Positions 16,605-23,357 of a stretch of 64,000 nt of DNA are shown piece by piece (position 1 is the stretch's first letter; every line of letters begins with the position of its first letter). This stretch comes from Geothrix limicola. GTDB taxonomy: Bacteria; Acidobacteriota; Holophagae; Holophagales; Holophagaceae. A program made the position numbers and the translations under genes. Below the pieces are notes generated by a model. The model did no database searches and was not told the origin of the DNA. It saw only the letters and a list, made by a program, of their open reading frames with translations. The stretch is taken from positions 496,001-560,000 of the forward strand of contig NZ_BSDE01000001.1 of assembly GCF_030268085.1 (NCBI RefSeq), given 5' to 3'.

Positions 16605-17792
16605 CTATCGCGATGACGCGTGATTCTGCCCCAGGCCGTTGATCTGGGACGGGGCCACGTGCGCTCGATGGCCTTGGCGCCGATCCTGGTAGACCGGGAG
16701 AAAGACCTGGAAGGAGCTTCCATGGCCCGGCCGGCTTGAGACCCTGAGGTTCCCGCCGTGCCTTTGAATGATGTCGTGCACGACGGAAAGACCGAGCCCG
16801 GTCCCCTGGCCCGCATCCTTCGTGGTGAAGAAGGGTTCGAAGATCCGCTCCATCGTCTGGACCGACATCCCGCACCCCGTATCTTCCACGGTGAGCTGGA
16901 TGCAGGGGCCGGAATAGGAGGGATCCACCAGGCCCTGCTCGTTGGCCACTTTCTGAACCTGGATGTAGAGTTCCCCGCCTGCGGGCTGCATGGCCTGGCT
17001 CGCGTTGAAACCCAGGTTCATGATCACCTGGTGAAGCTGGGAGGAATCTCCGGGGACTTCCAGGCCCTCGGCGATGTCGCTCCGCAGTTGCACGTTCTCC
17101 GGAAGCGCGTTCTGGAGGAGCTTGGCCACTTCTTCCATGAGGCTGGTGAAGTCCACTGGGGTCCAGGGACCATCGGAGCGGCGGCTGAAGTTCATGATCT
17201 GCGACGCCAACTCCTTGGCGCGGCCGCCCACCCGCCGGATGATCTCGAATTTGGATTGGATGCGGCTGTCGGGACCGACCTGCATCTCCATGAGGTCGAC
17301 CGTGGTGAGCACCACGCCGATCAGGTTGTTGAAGTCGTGGGCAACCCCCCGGGCCAGGGCGCCGAGGGTGCCCATTCTCTGGGCCACCCGCGGGTGCCAG
17401 TCATTCCCCGATTCCAGGGTGATGTCCCTCAGCCGGACGATCAGTGACTCGACCAGCCCCTGTTCGTTCTGCACGGGAGAAAGGGTGCCCTCGAACCAGA
17501 TTTCCCGCCCGGCGCGGGTCCTGAGGAAGACGCGGCCCATCCAGGCCTTGCCCGTGCGCGCTTGATCAAGGGCGGTGGCCAGGATGTTGTATTGCACTTC
17601 GGGTCCAAACAAGTCCAGCAGGTTTTGCCCCGCGGGCCAGGGACCGGACTGGTTGAAGATCCGCGAGAATGCGGCGTTCGAATGCAGCAAGGTCCCGGTC
17701 TTGGCATCCAGGAGGGCGAGCCCCTCCGGGACCTGGTCGAGGGCAGAAGCGAGCCCCCGTTCCATCCGGGGATCAGGTGCGAGACCGCTCAT
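16605..17792 (-). CDS. PAS-domain sensor histidine kinase, apparently soluble
   Basis: The ATG at 17792 is preceded by GGAGG at good spacing; the longer frame adds an Arg-rich run unlike protein and is rejected. Residues of about 15-125 form a PAS domain (ALLDAKTGTLLHSNAAFSRI). The phospho-acceptor box is ALARGVAHDFNN (His152), followed by a HATPase domain with N box NLGFNASQAM, G1 EDTGCGM and G2 GQGTGLGLS. No membrane segment is visible, so it probably senses a cytoplasmic signal. No response regulator is directly adjacent in its operon; the LytTR regulator at 18025 lies 232 bp upstream on the same strand but has its own kinase. Confidence 0.88.
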   Translation of the reverse strand: MSGLAPDPRMERGLASALDQVPEGLALLDAKTGTLLHSNAAFSRIFNQSGPWPAGQNLLDLFGPEVQYNILATALDQARTGKAWMGRVFLRTRAGREIWFEGTLSPVQNEQGLVESLIVRLRDITLESGNDWHPRVAQRMGTLGALARGVAHDFNNLIGVVLTTVDLMEMQVGPDSRIQSKFEIIRRVGGRAKELASQIMNFSRRSDGPWTPVDFTSLMEEVAKLLQNALPENVQLRSDIAEGLEVPGDSSQLHQVIMNLGFNASQAMQPAGGELYIQVQKVANEQGLVDPSYSGPCIQLTVEDTGCGMSVQTMERIFEPFFTTKDAGQGTGLGLSVVHDIIQRHGGNLRVSSRPGHGSSFQVFLPVYQDRRQGHRAHVAPSQINGLGQNHASSR

Positions 17793-18024
17793 GCCGCCCA
17801 GCCTCCAGAACCGGCCGGGGCACCGAAAGCGCAGGCAGTGGGGGATGGGCACATGTCCGGCTCCTGGATGTCGATGTCTTCGCCTAGGCCGGCCTGGGCC
17901 AGCCCTATGGCCAGAATCATAGGGAGGGCACCCGTCGCTTGTAATCCAGTTCCGCCGAACGGTGGTTTTCCTACCCCCGAACGGGCATTCCTTCACCAAG
18001 GTCTCACTGGTCCGGATTGCGCCT

Positions 18025-18771
18025 TCAGTCCGGTTCGGTCCGCAGGTAGGCTCGCATTCTCGGGGTCATGGCGCGGCTGACCGTCAGTTCGACCTTCGGG
18101 GCGATCATCACTTTGACCCGCCCGACCGTGGCGGGTCGAATGCCCCGGACCATCTTGGGCCGCAGAAGCAGGTGGCGCTGGATCCTCAGCATCCCATCAT
18201 CGGGAAAGGCCTGTTCCACTTCCGAAAGGGTGGTCCAGCGGGTGACGTACCGGTTCATGCCGCGGCAGGCCCAGACGTGATCATCCTGCAATTCGAAGTG
18301 CGTGATGAGGTCCAGTTCCATGAAGATCTCGCCGTCGCCCGCGCGGATGGGGAACCGCACGGGAGGCGGGAGCAGCGTCTTCAATTCGCTGGGATTGAGG
18401 GGCCTGACGAGGTTCTGGCGCAATCGCTGGAGGCACTTGGCCAACCGGTCCTCGAAGACCGGCTTGAGCAGGTAGTCCGCGGCGGCCAGCTCGAAGGCAC
18501 GCACGGCGTAGGTGGAGTGGGCGGTCACGAAGACCACGGGCGGACAGGACGGGGCCTCTGCCAGCACCTCCATGCCGTTGGGGCCCGGCATCTGGATGTC
18601 CAGGAAGATGACATCCAGCTCCTGCGGCTGCTTCAGCCACTGGAGCAGGGCCTGTCCGTCGCTCAACTCGCCGACGACCGCGCAGTCCGCTTCCTGAAGC
18701 AACCGCGACAAGCGCTCCCTGGCCAGGGGCTCGTCATCGACCACCAGGGCTTTTAAGCGCTTCATCGGCAT
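18025..18771 (-). CDS. LytTR-family response regulator
   Basis: The receiver domain spans residues of about 6-120, with the acidic pair DDE at 12-14, the phosphorylated Asp58 in FLDIQMPG and the conserved Lys in YLLKPVF. The LytTR DNA-binding domain follows at about 140-245 (VRFPIRAGDGEIFMELD, MLRIQRHLLLRPKMV). The gene overlaps the upstream LytS-type kinase by 38 bases, a firm sign of a dedicated pair. LytTR regulators often control peptide-based signalling and bacteriocin genes, which is of interest given the peptide and LanB genes beside it. Confidence 0.9.
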   Translation of the reverse strand: MPMKRLKALVVDDEPLARERLSRLLQEADCAVVGELSDGQALLQWLKQPQELDVIFLDIQMPGPNGMEVLAEAPSCPPVVFVTAHSTYAVRAFELAAADYLLKPVFEDRLAKCLQRLRQNLVRPLNPSELKTLLPPPVRFPIRAGDGEIFMELDLITHFELQDDHVWACRGMNRYVTRWTTLSEVEQAFPDDGMLRIQRHLLLRPKMVRGIRPATVGRVKVMIAPKVELTVSRAMTPRMRAYLRTEPD

Positions 18772-19813
18772 AGTCTACTTGGTTCGCCTCCAGGCGGATG
18801 CAGGCAAGCGTGCCCTCGTTCGAAGGGCCTACCTCGAAGCTGGCGCTCGTGCCGAAGTGCAGGGAGAGCCGCGAACGCAGGTTCTTCACGCCCAGGCCCC
18901 CTCCTCCCTGTCGATCGGAATAGGGCACGCCGGAATTCCAGACTTCCAGATGAATCACCCCCTCCTGGTTCCGGGCGCGGAGAATCAATTCCCCGCCGCG
19001 GATGCTGGGGGCGATGCCGTGCTTGATGGCGTTCTCCACCAGGGGCTGGACGAGCAGCGGCGGCACTTCGATGGCATCCAGACCCTCGTCCCACTCCCAG
19101 GTGACCCTGAGCCGATCCTCCAGCCGGATGGCCTCCAGGGCCAGGAAATCTGAAATGACCCTGCGCTCTTCCCCGAGGGGCATCCGCATGGACTCCGAAG
19201 CGGTCATGATGCGCCGGAGCAGGTCCGAGAGGTGCCGGATGGCTCGTTCCGCCGCCTTGGGGTTCTTGTTGACCAGTTCTGCGAGACCATTGAGGGCATT
19301 GAAGAGCACATGGGGATGGATCTGGCTCTGCAGCAGCCGGTTCTTGGCCACCCGCGCTTCGGCGACCGAGGCCTGCCGCAGCTCCTCGGAACGGGCGCGG
19401 GCGGCGACCAAACCACCGACGAGCATCATGCCTGGACCAACCAGTGACACATAGAGCTCCACGACCTTGCCCAGGCTGAATTTGAGGCTTCCATGAGCGA
19501 GTATCCAAGCGTCAAGAAGTGGGAGAAGGGCCGAGATTGGTTCACAAATGAGGATCGAAAGAGCGAAGCCAACAATGAAATTCCAAGGCGAAGATAAGTG
19601 GCGGGGCAGGATCCAAGGCAAGGGAGCCAGCAGGGCAAAGGCTCCAATGTGCGTTAGCGGGGAGGAGATGGCGCTGATCCAGATCCAGCTAGATCCGAGT
19701 CGGTGGCCCGCCCAGTGCCCTTGGAGAATCAGCAGCACCAAAATCGCGTAGCAGACCCCCATGAATCGCCAGTTTTTGGCCAGGGGGAAACAAGAAGCCC
19801 AAGAATTCGTCAA
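18734..19813 (-). CDS. LytS/YehU-type membrane sensor histidine kinase
   Basis: About five membrane segments occupy the N-terminal half (YAILVLLILQ, IGAFALLAPLPWIL, FIVGFALSILICEPI and others). A short coiled segment follows, then the His_kinase block QIHPHVLFNALNGL and a HATPase domain (PPLLVQPLVENAIKHG, GGGGLGVKNL). The family consensus is QINPHFLFN; here the motif has His and Val substitutions. The start is uncertain: a TTG at 19813 has GGAG eight bases upstream, an ATG at 19762 lacks a Shine-Dalgarno, and the longest frame (ATG at 19906) would overlap the peptide gene at 19857. Partner of the overlapping LytTR regulator. Confidence 0.85.
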   Translation of the reverse strand: MTNSWASCFPLAKNWRFMGVCYAILVLLILQGHWAGHRLGSSWIWISAISSPLTHIGAFALLAPLPWILPRHLSSPWNFIVGFALSILICEPISALLPLLDAWILAHGSLKFSLGKVVELYVSLVGPGMMLVGGLVAARARSEELRQASVAEARVAKNRLLQSQIHPHVLFNALNGLAELVNKNPKAAERAIRHLSDLLRRIMTASESMRMPLGEERRVISDFLALEAIRLEDRLRVTWEWDEGLDAIEVPPLLVQPLVENAIKHGIAPSIRGGELILRARNQEGVIHLEVWNSGVPYSDRQGGGGLGVKNLRSRLSLHFGTSASFEVGPSNEGTLACIRLEANQVDYADEALKSPGGR

Positions 19814-19856
19814 TCCTAGGGCTCCGCGATCACCAAGCTCGGCGAATTCGGGCCCG

Positions 19857-20009
19857 TCATCCCTGCGTCGTGAGGACAGTGGTGAAGGAGAAGGGCTTCT
19901 GCTCACGGGCAGCCTTCAAGCCCTGGGCTTTCTGCGCCTGGTGGAGCGATTCGCTGGCGGAGCTCGAACGCTGGATGGATTCTTTGCGGAAGGAGAGGCG
20001 GCTGTTCAT
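19857..20009 (-). CDS. Candidate RiPP precursor or signal peptide (50 aa)
   Basis: A 50-codon frame with strongly GC-biased third positions lies immediately upstream of the LytS/LytTR pair on the same strand and divergent from lanB. It begins MNSRLSFRKESIQ, which resembles the L-x-x-x-K-E-[ST]-[IL] start of many class I lanthipeptide leaders. The end is KPFSFTTVLTTQG, a Ser/Thr-rich tail suited to dehydration. There is no cysteine, so no lanthionine ring could form. GGGA lies six bases before the ATG, a weak ribosome site. That it is a LanB substrate is inference from position and leader-like sequence. It could instead be a peptide pheromone for the adjacent kinase, or not be translated. Confidence 0.5.
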   Translation of the reverse strand: MNSRLSFRKESIQRSSSASESLHQAQKAQGLKAAREQKPFSFTTVLTTQG

Positions 20010-20219
20010 GGGAATTCCCGGGTAGCGCCATGGGGCGCAACCACGGTTCTGAGGCTTGCCGGGATGAAAGCCAAATCCTTTCCATGAACGGTATCTAAGC
20101 ACGACTTCAACCGTTGGGGGGCGCTTCGAACACCTTTCGGCGGCCGGCTCGAATTCGGGATTGGATGGCTGTATTCCTGGGTGGGTCCTGTTCTTCTAGG
20201 TGAAGGAAGCAGCCACGCC

Positions 20220-23200
20220 ATGACACATCGGCCCCCTTGCCAGACTGCAGCGTTCTTCGTACTCCGCACGCCGGGGCTGGCCTCGGACGCGCTTTCACGC
20301 TGTGCCCCTGATCCTGGAGGAGCCCATGGCCTGGCCCCTTCCGAGAGTGGATTGGAGGAAGACCGGAACGCGCTGCGCCAGCGCCTCCGTCAGCTGATCC
20401 AGGATGGGGCGGTGCGCGAAGCGGTCGCCCTCGCCTCCCCGGATCTGGCTTCCCGACTGGAGGCCTGGCAGGACGGTTCGATGGAGCCCACGGCGGCACG
20501 GCGGCTGGAGTGGGCTCTGTTGAAGTACCTCAGCCGGATGAGCCATCGCGCGACGCCCTTCGGACTGTTCGCGGGCGTGTCCCTGGGGAGCTGGACAAGC
20601 ACCAGCCGCCTGTCTGTGCCGGCCTGGCGGGAGGGCCGCAAAGTCATGCGTCTCGACTGGGGTGTTCTGGAATCCGCGGTGGACCGCCTGGAGCAGGAGG
20701 CCGACGTTCGGAACCTTCTGACCTACCGGCCCAACTCGAGTTTGTATGCACGCGGCGGTTGGTACCGGTACCTCGAGCGCCGCCCCTCGGGGAAGGGCCA
20801 GGAGCGGAGCTACCACTTGGAAGCGGTGGAAGCCACGGCCCACCTCGACGTCGTGTTGCAGCAGGCCCGGGAGGGGGCCCGCCTGGTGGACCTCACCTCG
20901 AGCCTGGCCCACCGCATGGCGGTGGATCCCGCGGAAGCGCGGTCGTTTCTGGAGCAGGTCATCGAGGCCCGGTTCCTCTGCGGAAACCTGCATCCACCGC
21001 TGACCTGTCCCGATCCCATGGGCTGGGTCACCGCCCTCCTGCGATCGGATCCCACCGCCGGGCATCGAGCCGAAGCGCTGGAGGCCGTGGCCAGGGATCT
21101 GGAGACGGCTCGGGAAGCGCCCATCGGAACCCAACCCCAAGGCTACGGCGGCCTCGCGGCCTCGCTGGCGGGCCTCGGGATTTCTCCTGAAACGAAGGAT
21201 GTCCTCCAGGTGGATCTCTTCAGACCGGTGACGGACCTGACCCTGTCTCCTCTGGTTCAGCGGGCCTTGGAAGATGGTGCCGAGACCCTCCGCCGGCTCA
21301 CACCACCGCCCGCCGAAGGGCCCCTGGATCGCTTCCGCGTGGCCTTTCTCGACCGGTACGGCGCCCGGTGGATGCCCCTCCTGGAGGTGCTCGACGAGGA
21401 GAGCGGCCTCGGCTTCGATGGCGGCCTGCCCCTGGATTCGCCGCTACTGGAGGGCCTGGCCTTTCCCAGCGCCTCAAGGCCGCGCCTGCTGTCCCGTCGG
21501 GATCAATTCCTTCTGAAGCAGATCCATCGATGGCACGACACTCGGATCTGGGAGCTGAGCGATGCGGATGTGGAGGCGCTCGAAAACCCCGACCCGCCGC
21601 GCTTCCCGCCTTCCTTCGCGGCCTTGACTTCTCTCGCGGCCGACAGCCCGGAGACCCTGGACCGCGGGACCTTTCAATTCTGGATGGAGCAATATTCCGG
21701 GCCCACCGCCGCACGCTGGCTCGGCCGCTTCGCCTCGGGCGATCCGGGCTTGGAGCAGGTCCTGAAGGACCACTTGCGCAAGGAGGAAGCAGCCTGCCCC
21801 GAGGCTCTGTTCGCCGAGGTGGTCCACGTGCCCGAGGGGCGCATGGGCAACGTGCTCGCGAGGCCGGCGCTGCGGGTGTACGAGATCCCCTTCCTCGCGA
21901 CTCCGGGCGTTTCCGATGAGAAGACGATCCTGCCATCGGATCTCCGGGTGACCGTGCGGGGAGGCCGCGTGGTGCTCGCCTCGGCACGCCTCGGGCGGGA
22001 GGTGGTCCCGCGGCTCTCCTCCGCCCACAACTTTGCCCACGGGCCCGTGGTCTACCGGTTCCTGGCCCGCCTGCAGGACCAGGATGGCCGCCCGGGCGGG
22101 TGGTCCTGGGGGGCTTTGTCCGAACAGCCCTTCTTGCCCCGGGTCAGTTGTGGACGGCACGTGCTCAGCAAGGCCCGCTGGCGCATCGAAGCCGCAGAAC
22201 TGAAGTCAGCCCTGGATGATTCCCGCGAAGGCGCCTGGGGGGCCTTCCAGGCGTTGCGGGAGCGGCGCGGGCTTCCTCGGTTCGTCGTGCTGAACGACGC
22301 CGACAACGGCCTGCTGGTGGACCTGGACCGGGTGCTGTGGGTGGAGGCCCTCCACCACCTTGTCTCCGGGCGTCCCTTCTTCCTTCTCACGGAGTGTTTC
22401 CCCGATCCGGGCCAGGCCCTGGTCACCTCACCAGAAGGCGCCCTGGCCCACGAGCTGGTCATCCCCTTCGAGGCGGCGTCTCCCGACAGGCCCGGGCTGG
22501 GCCCTCTCCCCGAGGCACAGCAGGATTCGGGTGCGAGGGCCTATCCGCCTGGCTCGGAGTGGCTCTACCTCAAGCTCTACTGCGGAGCGGCCAGCGCGGA
22601 TCGCCTCCTGGTGGAACTGGAGCCCTTCCTGCGGGCGACCCAGGCCCAGGGGCTTTGGGATCGCTGGCACTTCATTCGGTACCGCGATCCGGAGCATCAC
22701 CTGCGCCTTCGCTTCCACGGCGTTCCAGGCCGGCTCCTCGCCGAACTGTTGCCGCTGGTTCATGGGCACCTGAAGGAACCCCTGGCCCAGGGGCTGCTGT
22801 GGAAGTGGCAGGTCGACACCTTCGAGCCGGAGCTGGAGCGCTACGGCGGCCCCCACGGCTTCGCCCTGGCGGAGGCCTGGTTCTTCGAGGACAGCGGACG
22901 CGTCCTCGAACATCTGGTTGCCGGCCCGACGATGGAAGCCCGGTGGCGATCAGGCTTCGTGGGCGTGGATGCCATCTGGGCGGCTCTTGGGTTGGATCTC
23001 CGCGAGCGAAAAGATCTCGCCCAGGCCTCCCGGGAGGCCTTCCGGAAGGAGTTCGGAGACACCGGGGAAACGGTGGTGCAGATCGGCGCGAAGTTCAGAA
23101 ACCTGCGCAAGGACCTGGAGCGTGCGTTCCAGGACGCGGCGGAAGGGGCCACGGCGTCCGGCAGTCTGGCGCGCATCCGCGAGGCCATTGAGCAGGGACT

Positions 23201-23357
23201 GATCCAGGAGGATCGGATCAGCCTGGCCAGCAGCCTGGCACACATGCACCTCAACCGGCTGTTCCGGGACAACCCCCGGGAGCAGGAATGGGTGCTCATG
23301 GAATTCCTGGCCCGGATGTACGAGTCCCGGATGGCGCGGCAGCCTGCCCCTTGTTGA
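20220..23357 (+). CDS. Full-length class I lanthipeptide dehydratase (LanB-type)
   Basis: Dehydrates Ser/Thr of a precursor peptide using glutamyl-tRNA. The ATG at 20220 with AAGGAAG upstream is preferred to the GTG at 20181, because the family opens just there (FFVLRTPGLASDAL). Residues of about 1-700 are the glutamylation domain (RMSHRATPFGLFAGVSLG, RLDWGVLESAVD, LPRFVVLNDADN). The SpaB_C elimination domain follows from about 780 (WLYLKLYCG, WHFIRYRDPEHHLRLRFHG). With 1045 aa and both domains it is the canonical unsplit form rather than the split thiopeptide type. No LanC cyclase, LanP protease or LanT exporter is adjacent, so either they lie elsewhere or the product is only dehydrated. Confidence 0.9.
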   Translation: MTHRPPCQTAAFFVLRTPGLASDALSRCAPDPGGAHGLAPSESGLEEDRNALRQRLRQLIQDGAVREAVALASPDLASRLEAWQDGSMEPTAARRLEWALLKYLSRMSHRATPFGLFAGVSLGSWTSTSRLSVPAWREGRKVMRLDWGVLESAVDRLEQEADVRNLLTYRPNSSLYARGGWYRYLERRPSGKGQERSYHLEAVEATAHLDVVLQQAREGARLVDLTSSLAHRMAVDPAEARSFLEQVIEARFLCGNLHPPLTCPDPMGWVTALLRSDPTAGHRAEALEAVARDLETAREAPIGTQPQGYGGLAASLAGLGISPETKDVLQVDLFRPVTDLTLSPLVQRALEDGAETLRRLTPPPAEGPLDRFRVAFLDRYGARWMPLLEVLDEESGLGFDGGLPLDSPLLEGLAFPSASRPRLLSRRDQFLLKQIHRWHDTRIWELSDADVEALENPDPPRFPPSFAALTSLAADSPETLDRGTFQFWMEQYSGPTAARWLGRFASGDPGLEQVLKDHLRKEEAACPEALFAEVVHVPEGRMGNVLARPALRVYEIPFLATPGVSDEKTILPSDLRVTVRGGRVVLASARLGREVVPRLSSAHNFAHGPVVYRFLARLQDQDGRPGGWSWGALSEQPFLPRVSCGRHVLSKARWRIEAAELKSALDDSREGAWGAFQALRERRGLPRFVVLNDADNGLLVDLDRVLWVEALHHLVSGRPFFLLTECFPDPGQALVTSPEGALAHELVIPFEAASPDRPGLGPLPEAQQDSGARAYPPGSEWLYLKLYCGAASADRLLVELEPFLRATQAQGLWDRWHFIRYRDPEHHLRLRFHGVPGRLLAELLPLVHGHLKEPLAQGLLWKWQVDTFEPELERYGGPHGFALAEAWFFEDSGRVLEHLVAGPTMEARWRSGFVGVDAIWAALGLDLRERKDLAQASREAFRKEFGDTGETVVQIGAKFRNLRKDLERAFQDAAEGATASGSLARIREAIEQGLIQEDRISLASSLAHMHLNRLFRDNPREQEWVLMEFLARMYESRMARQPAPC

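Follow-up and report, generated by a model that had tools for sequence, protein, structure and literature searches.

The window analysed here, a 64,000-nucleotide stretch of the Geothrix limicola genome (contig NZ_BSDE01000001.1, positions 496,001 to 560,000), carries a compact four-gene module. A short peptide gene, a LytS-type histidine kinase gene and a LytTR regulator gene lie on one strand, and lanB, encoding a class I lanthipeptide-type dehydratase, diverges from them across a putative three-box operator. The module is probably (roughly 60%) an autoinducing pheromone circuit that signals through a linear, cysteine-free peptide dehydrated by LanB. Sequence comparison across the family indicates that the module, its coding peptide, the variable, cysteine-free and threonine-rich tail of that peptide, the catalytic residues of LanB and the operator are conserved, and that the tail covaries with the kinase sensor. 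Dehydration, cleavage, export, sensing by ligand binding and activation would be the steps that connect these elements. The features are as follows, with positions numbered from the start of the window.

18025..18771, minus strand: response regulator with a LytTR DNA-binding domain (Pfam)
18734..19906, minus strand: LytS/PF06580-type histidine kinase (Pfam) with four predicted membrane helices and a GTG start
19857..20009, minus strand: precursor peptide gene, 50 aa, with leader LSFRKESIQ... and a Thr-rich, Cys-free tail
20025..20038, minus strand: 5' leader hairpin (GCGCC-4 nt-GGCGC) preceding the ribosome-binding site
20046..20074, minus strand: candidate weak promoter for the peptide operon (TTGGCT, 17 nt, CAGAAC; read by eye)
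20087..20136: putative operator between lanB and the peptide gene, three LytTR-type boxes at 22-bp steps (minus strand: box1 20131-20136, with one mismatch in the window; box2 20109-20114; box3 20087-20092)
20220..23357, plus strand: lanB, full-length class I lanthipeptide-type dehydratase (Lant_dehydr_N and Lant_dehydr_C)

Organisation and conservation of the module

The preliminary description of this DNA placed a short peptide, a LytS-like kinase and an overlapping LytTR regulator at positions 18025-20009. All three reading frames are present on one strand as described; the range lacks lanB and the operator. The regulator and kinase genes overlap by 38 nt. GTG 19906, the best start candidate of the kinase, lies 50 nt within the peptide gene, and an in-frame ATG or GTG is available to the kinase in all 32 loci that have the peptide, giving overlaps with the peptide gene of 44-65 nt. 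Overlaps thus link all three genes in a chain, suggesting a translationally coupled operon. For lanB, ATG 20220 is a likelier start than GTG 20181. A PAS-HisKA-HATPase kinase (16605-17999, minus strand) lies directly 3' of the regulator on the same strand; with the window counted, relatives of it are found downstream in 9 of 36 clustered loci, so the operon may have this kinase as an additional member.

Conservation was assessed in 77 genomes of the same family, queried with LanB and the kinase. We took 38 kinase matches, down to E 2.8e-86 (the next match listed was 40% identical, E 5.9e-61), and kinase matches below 43% identity were excluded from gene mapping. Two of the 38 rows are halves of one split gene (G032). 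Counts are based on the 36 rows, window included, with at least 250 nt of upstream sequence. Among these 36 loci the peptide accompanies the kinase in 32, a divergent lanB in 32 (some cut by contig ends, and that of L093 truncated) and the regulator in 35. L080 and L106 end at contig edges, with no lanB and no regulator seen, and at L097 the peptide gene is broken, its 5' end missing. Beyond the four genes, no cluster of neighbours occurs in more than 9 of the 36 loci; the module therefore sits in different places. One genome (G046) carries two modules with differing tails. Another (G020) keeps peptide, kinase and regulator beside a lanB that is cut short, and also has a second kinase-regulator pair without a peptide. 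In the former of its loci (L093, G020:C1 near 861407-862021) the open frame of lanB spans approximately 254-294 codons, and peptide, kinase and regulator are open.

The three genes had previously been considered independently of LanB. This separation does not hold: in 32 of the 36 loci lanB and the peptide gene point away from each other on either side of the boxes, and the three loci that have no peptide at all (L098, L099 and L101) have no lanB either, so that lanB is best counted as the fourth circuit gene. The same three loci bear on a further point. Genomes that keep kinase and regulator without the short reading frame had been named as evidence that would refute a circuit, and such pairs do occur in 3 of 36 loci, which counts against the circuit reading. 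However, L098 and L099 retain two boxes spaced by 22 bp and module-like promoter sequence just upstream, and at L101 the last box alone is intact. The absence of the peptide thus reads as secondary loss, and these may be receiver-only loci. All three (in G009, G010 and G020) lie downstream of two large genes that appear by eye to be of the recB/addB helicase-nuclease type.

The peptide resembles a RiPP precursor

Over codons 4-17 the peptide frame shows a pN/pS of 0.27 in 28 loci (31 motif-bearing loci minus the divergent L104, L108 and L109; L103 was added later by eye), indicative of purifying selection. The other two frames over the same codons give 2.21 and 1.12. An HMM built from the 32 peptides, with at most 87 first-look candidates scored per genome, recovered 33 copies in 32 of the 77 genomes, all at the module, and beyond these only two marginal matches with stops. 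Together, the pN/pS values and the HMM search rule out a chance reading frame for the 50-aa peptide. A competing frame of 60 aa (20085..19903), which is open in many of the loci, was rejected on the pN/pS values outside the peptide frame; that its ATG abuts box3 was also counted against it.

Residues 5-13 of the leader read LSFRKESIQ in 20 of the 32 peptides by position, and in one more (21) when L094 is credited with a one-residue deletion. Conversely, the tails are hypervariable, with 32 distinct sequences among 32 peptides. Threonine accounts for 35% of residues among the last 12 and for 5-7% elsewhere in the peptides; 29 of 32 tails contain at least three. None of the 32 12-residue tails contains cysteine; the first 31 peptides, 1620 residues in total, contain a single cysteine, which belongs to the L095 leader. 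No Gly-Gly site was found in the module peptide. A scan of the 32 peptides with NCBIfam gave no matches, and one with Pfam gave two single weak matches. Precursors near other LanBs of the same family share a [KR]-E-T-[IL] leader motif, but have four cysteines (L112, L114). In its fixed leader and variable core, the peptide looks like a RiPP precursor and unlike a plain pheromone.

LanB is conserved in the absence of LanC

The own genome carries one LanB, to which the nearest PDB entries are 5ehk, 9g04 and NisB. In the 30 module-type LanBs longer than 900 aa, the residues aligned with NisB Y80, R83, R87, T89, R784, R786 and R826 are identical in every case. The histidine matching NisB H961 is likewise identical in 30 of 30, its position being assigned by motif spacing, as the NisB alignment stops short of it. 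R786 and R826 also have roles in NisB. According to the available text of PMC4341554, the Y80F and H961A substitutions in NisB abolish dehydration, R83A and R87A reduce it and R784A has a mild effect.

No LanC was found at the module, and none over the cut-off in the own genome, where one match scores 9.9 bits against a cut-off of 23.2. Seven of the 77 family genomes have a LanC above the cut-off; six of these carry it no more than 1 kb from a LanB of a different type, and G066 carries it elsewhere. With no cysteine in the tail and no LanC, a lanthionine ring would not form, and we propose that the product is a linear dehydrated peptide. C39 peptidases, present in 18 of the 77 family genomes, occur in 8 of the 32 genomes with the module peptide and are absent from the remaining 24; none was found in the own genome. 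An exporter or leader protease was not found in the module; together with the missing Gly-Gly site and the missing C39 peptidase of the own genome, this counts against the reading as a signal circuit, which leaves release of the peptide without an explanation.

The kinase and the regulator

The kinase matches Pfam His_kinase (PF06580) with 68 bits, while its HATPase_c match falls below the cut-off for that family; the regulator comprises Response_reg and LytTR domains. The hydrophobicity profile of the kinase has four peaks. An AlphaFold2 model (42-row alignment, mean pLDDT 80, pTM 0.62, with residues 7-42 of low confidence) places helices at residues 44-69, 72-92, 106-125 and 140-213, the fourth continuing into the kinase core. 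The H-box and the conserved N-box region characteristic of LytS/PF06580 kinases are present. The H-box reads Q[IVL]HPHVLFNAL in 36 of 37 kinase rows; L107 ends at a contig edge ahead of it. The departure of this box from the usual form had been taken as the sign of a divergent subfamily. The departure is real, but valine in place of phenylalanine is also found in two of six other kinases read from the own genome (L006, L008) and is therefore not unique to the subfamily, leaving the claim mildly true. The own genome has nine PF06580 matches in all. In a wider contig collection (genome_contigs), among the matches listed, which may miss near records, the best of 80 kinase loci kept belongs to Holophagaceae bacterium UBA1801, with 45% identity across the kinase core. 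The best two named matches among those listed, both from one Holophagaceae genome, are 45% and 41% identical. None of the 80 loci kept has a LanB match.

Operator, promoter and leader RNA

A search for LytTR direct repeats upstream of lanB and the peptide, suggested by the preliminary description, revealed such repeats as predicted sites. Box2 (AACGGT; ACCGTT in L103) lies at -106/-105 from the peptide start in all 32 loci. Box1, as AACGG or AATGG, lies at -128/-127 in 27 of 32, and ACCGTT is found at -83 in 27 of 32. The box pattern also matches the plus strand. Under a strict pattern, two boxes 22 bp apart are present in 32 of 36 loci; of the exceptions, L086 misses by a single base, divergence accounts for L108 and L109, and one box is lost at L101. 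With at most one mismatch allowed, the three-box pattern is found at the module, on both strands, in 24 genomes. Matches beyond the module number 7 against 5 for a reversed control, showing no excess. Further operator targets were rejected because matches remain at the control level, and the lack of such targets counts against the circuit reading. Between box1 and the lanB ATG there are 75-90 nt in 26 of 32 loci; two more have 98-99 nt and three a longer distance, with the ATG unseen in one. These distances give the locus a near-symmetric divergent layout.

TTGGCT, the first element of the possible weak promoter, begins 9 bp below the 9-bp box ACCGTTCAT. LytTR Regulatory Systems autoregulate through 9-bp repeats that are separated by 12 bp, or 11 or 13 bp in a minority, and lie about 10 bp above the -35 element, according to the available text of PMC6193735. 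The module is alike in that its repeats are spaced by 13 bp and end 9 bp short of TTGGCT. It differs in having three boxes where those systems have two, and a histidine kinase where they have an inhibitory membrane protein; the locus also holds a peptide and LanB. A scan with the sigma-70 consensus returned a single site at 17916-17945 and none in the gap between peptide and lanB, an observation that counts against the circuit reading.

The five-pair hairpin of the leader is kept in 99.4% of 160 cells, with both-side (compensatory) changes at two pairs (3 cells). The leader of the window folds somewhat better than shuffled sequences (z -2.0), and by a measure of pair types the kept hairpin is equalled by 79 of 500 shuffles. 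A second hairpin covering the ribosome-binding site was rejected, because 4-5 of 32 rows disrupt two of the three pairs in it. A pairing of box1 with box3 proposed by RNAalifold was read as operator DNA and not as RNA structure.

The peptide tail covaries with the kinase sensor

Covariation was assessed in 27 of the 32 peptide loci; L106, L080 and L093 have no usable partner protein, and L108 and L109 were left out as too distant. The sensor was defined as the membrane module of the kinase, residues 40-170. A partial Mantel test of tail against sensor, controlling for kinase core, regulator and LanB, gave r 0.46 with p 0.0005, a value that is the floor of 2000 permutations and comes from a type of test that is over-confident under shared ancestry. 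Across four data variants, the partial r ranged from 0.38 to 0.51. By comparison, the tail correlated far less with LanB (0.14, p 0.06-0.07, full set), the kinase core (0.05, p 0.24) or the regulator (-0.02).

The specificity of this signal for the tail is tempered by several smaller correlations. The middle part of the peptide correlates weakly with the sensor (0.13-0.23, p 0.01-0.10), falling to between -0.01 and 0.12 once tail and leader are controlled. The leader also correlates with the sensor (0.23, p 0.04), which weakens the tail-specific case, and with LanB (0.30, p 0.03; 0.07 with gaps ignored). The tail correlates with the first part of the kinase core in one variant (0.14, p 0.05). 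Furthermore, the tail adjoins the DNA encoding the sensor, and the correlation is strongest for helices 1-2, the part closest to it; some of the signal may therefore come from linkage.

A proposed circuit and its alternatives

In the circuit that we propose, LanB would bind the conserved leader of the precursor and dehydrate threonine and serine residues of the C-terminal tail, converting threonine to dehydrobutyrine. The tail would then be cleaved and released through a host route not encoded at the module, after which the kinase would detect it with its four-helix membrane module and phosphorylate the LytTR regulator. The regulator would bind the three-box operator and activate the peptide-kinase-regulator operon and, divergently, lanB, creating a positive feedback loop. 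The pheromone circuit envisaged in the preliminary description is supported by conserved gene order, upstream LytTR-type repeats and tail-sensor covariation, but its signal would be no plain pheromone, given the RiPP-like precursor. Tentatively, and at somewhat less than even odds, the module may represent a new kind of pheromone system, in which a linear, dehydrobutyrine-containing, cysteine-free peptide is made by a lantibiotic-type dehydratase without a cyclase and read by a four-helix LytS-type kinase. The tail-sensor pairs would be diversified genus-wide, one genome would run two channels in parallel, and the receiver-only loci may eavesdrop.

Three other explanations deserve consideration. 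The module might encode a minimal bacteriocin, with the dehydrated peptide as the antimicrobial and the kinase-regulator pair detecting it to drive autoinduction, in the manner of nisin or bovicin HJ50. LanB is best known from antimicrobial lanthipeptides, and related kinase-LytTR pairs are found in classical clusters of the same genus. The products nisin and bovicin HJ50 are themselves termed autoinducible in the available text of PMC10663231. We nevertheless regard a bacteriocin as unlikely: the absence of any neighbour common to more than 9 of 36 loci means that there is no conserved exporter or immunity gene, the tails are without cysteine and the module without LanC, and covariation of the tail is stronger with the sensor than with LanB. 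It is slightly less plausible still that the peptide stays unexported and acts on the kinase as a small regulator from within the producer or its membrane. Such a cis-acting ligand would fit the covariation equally well, and would suit a module without an export gene in a genome without a C39 peptidase. However, 32 distinct tails and the two modules of G046 with different tails look like private channels, and kinase and regulator are kept without the peptide at three loci.

A kinase that senses something unrelated, with the peptide a LanB product merely co-regulated by the pair, seems very improbable. PF06580 kinases are numerous in the own genome, and three loci have the pair without a peptide. 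Against this stand the persistence of the tail-sensor covariation after kinase core, regulator and LanB are controlled for, and the candidate kinase start within the peptide gene in every peptide locus.

Relationship to known systems

Agr and ComCDE circuits combine a peptide, a multi-pass kinase and a LytTR regulator. The module shares these components and has predicted direct repeats upstream of its peptide operon; AgrA binds two direct repeats upstream of its promoters (PMC4227749, available text). It differs from them in having LanB where they have AgrB or a Gly-Gly exporter, and three boxes between divergent genes; a dedicated export or processing gene was not found at the module. As in lantibiotic autoinduction (NisRK, BovKR), a two-component pair lies beside a precursor and a modifying enzyme. 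In the nisin, subtilin and bovicin HJ50 (LanR-LanK) systems, a peptide modified by lanthionine enzymes induces its own operon through such a pair (PMC10663231, available text), which is what we propose here. Multi-helix kinases such as BovK and AgrC sense peptides at the membrane (PMC5266694, available text). NisK has two membrane segments and a large outer region, in contrast to the four predicted membrane helices of the module kinase. Unlike nisin-type systems, the module is without tail cysteines, LanC or a conserved transporter, protease or immunity gene.

Measured against class I lanthipeptides, the module has a LanB with conserved catalytic residues. Core cysteines are absent from the 32 tails and LanC from the own genome, and neither a Gly-Gly leader end with a C39 exporter nor LanT/LanP was found. 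Class I precursors of Bacteroidetes carry an LxLxKx5L leader (PMC7268733, available text), which the module leader resembles: the match is exact in L108 and L109, exact in L104 except for phenylalanine at the second leucine, and partial in the others. Bacteroidetes-type systems also share a full-length LanB with the module, but the latter is without a Gly-Gly site or tail cysteines, and its own genome without LanC or C39. Cysteine-free substrates of other lanthipeptide synthetases occur alongside a cyclase, whereas here the peptide is the sole precursor found and LanB is without LanC. In the best reading, the module works like NisRK or Agr circuits, yet it lacks features that define lanthipeptides.

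Ring-forming antibiotics are the products for which LanB enzymes are best known. If the circuit is as proposed, a LanB without LanC, acting on a cysteine-free substrate with a dedicated receptor, would extend post-translational dehydration to signalling, and the compact four-gene circuit with its natural tail-sensor pairs would offer a test bed for a kinase reading a dehydrated peptide. Among the titles and abstract openings listed from one open-access library, none resembled this system; the nearest of those listed is a LanM-like effector of Agr quorum sensing (PMC10301443, available text). A large lanthipeptide survey used LanC as bait and discarded cysteine-free ORFs, a design that, as set out in the available text, could not see such modules (PMC7268733).

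One genome of the same genus, G033, has both the module and a classical cluster (L213, 3037-16014). A PF06580 kinase, two LytTR regulators and a four-cysteine Gly-Gly precursor are encoded on one strand of that cluster, and a C39-ABC transporter, HlyD, LanB and LanC on the opposite strand. That a kinase and LytTR regulators adjoin the precursor there too speaks for the proposed circuit. The module of the window looks like a stripped, re-purposed relative of such clusters. Across the phylum, a LanB relative was found in 31 of 396 genomes, with at most two candidates scored per genome. The ten of these that lie outside the family were inspected for precursor-like ORFs only. In the regions around LanBs from other families of the phylum, such ORFs are present at L207 4514-4684, L209 12710-12895 and L212 2640-2858, with 5-7 cysteines and a [KR]-E-T leader motif.
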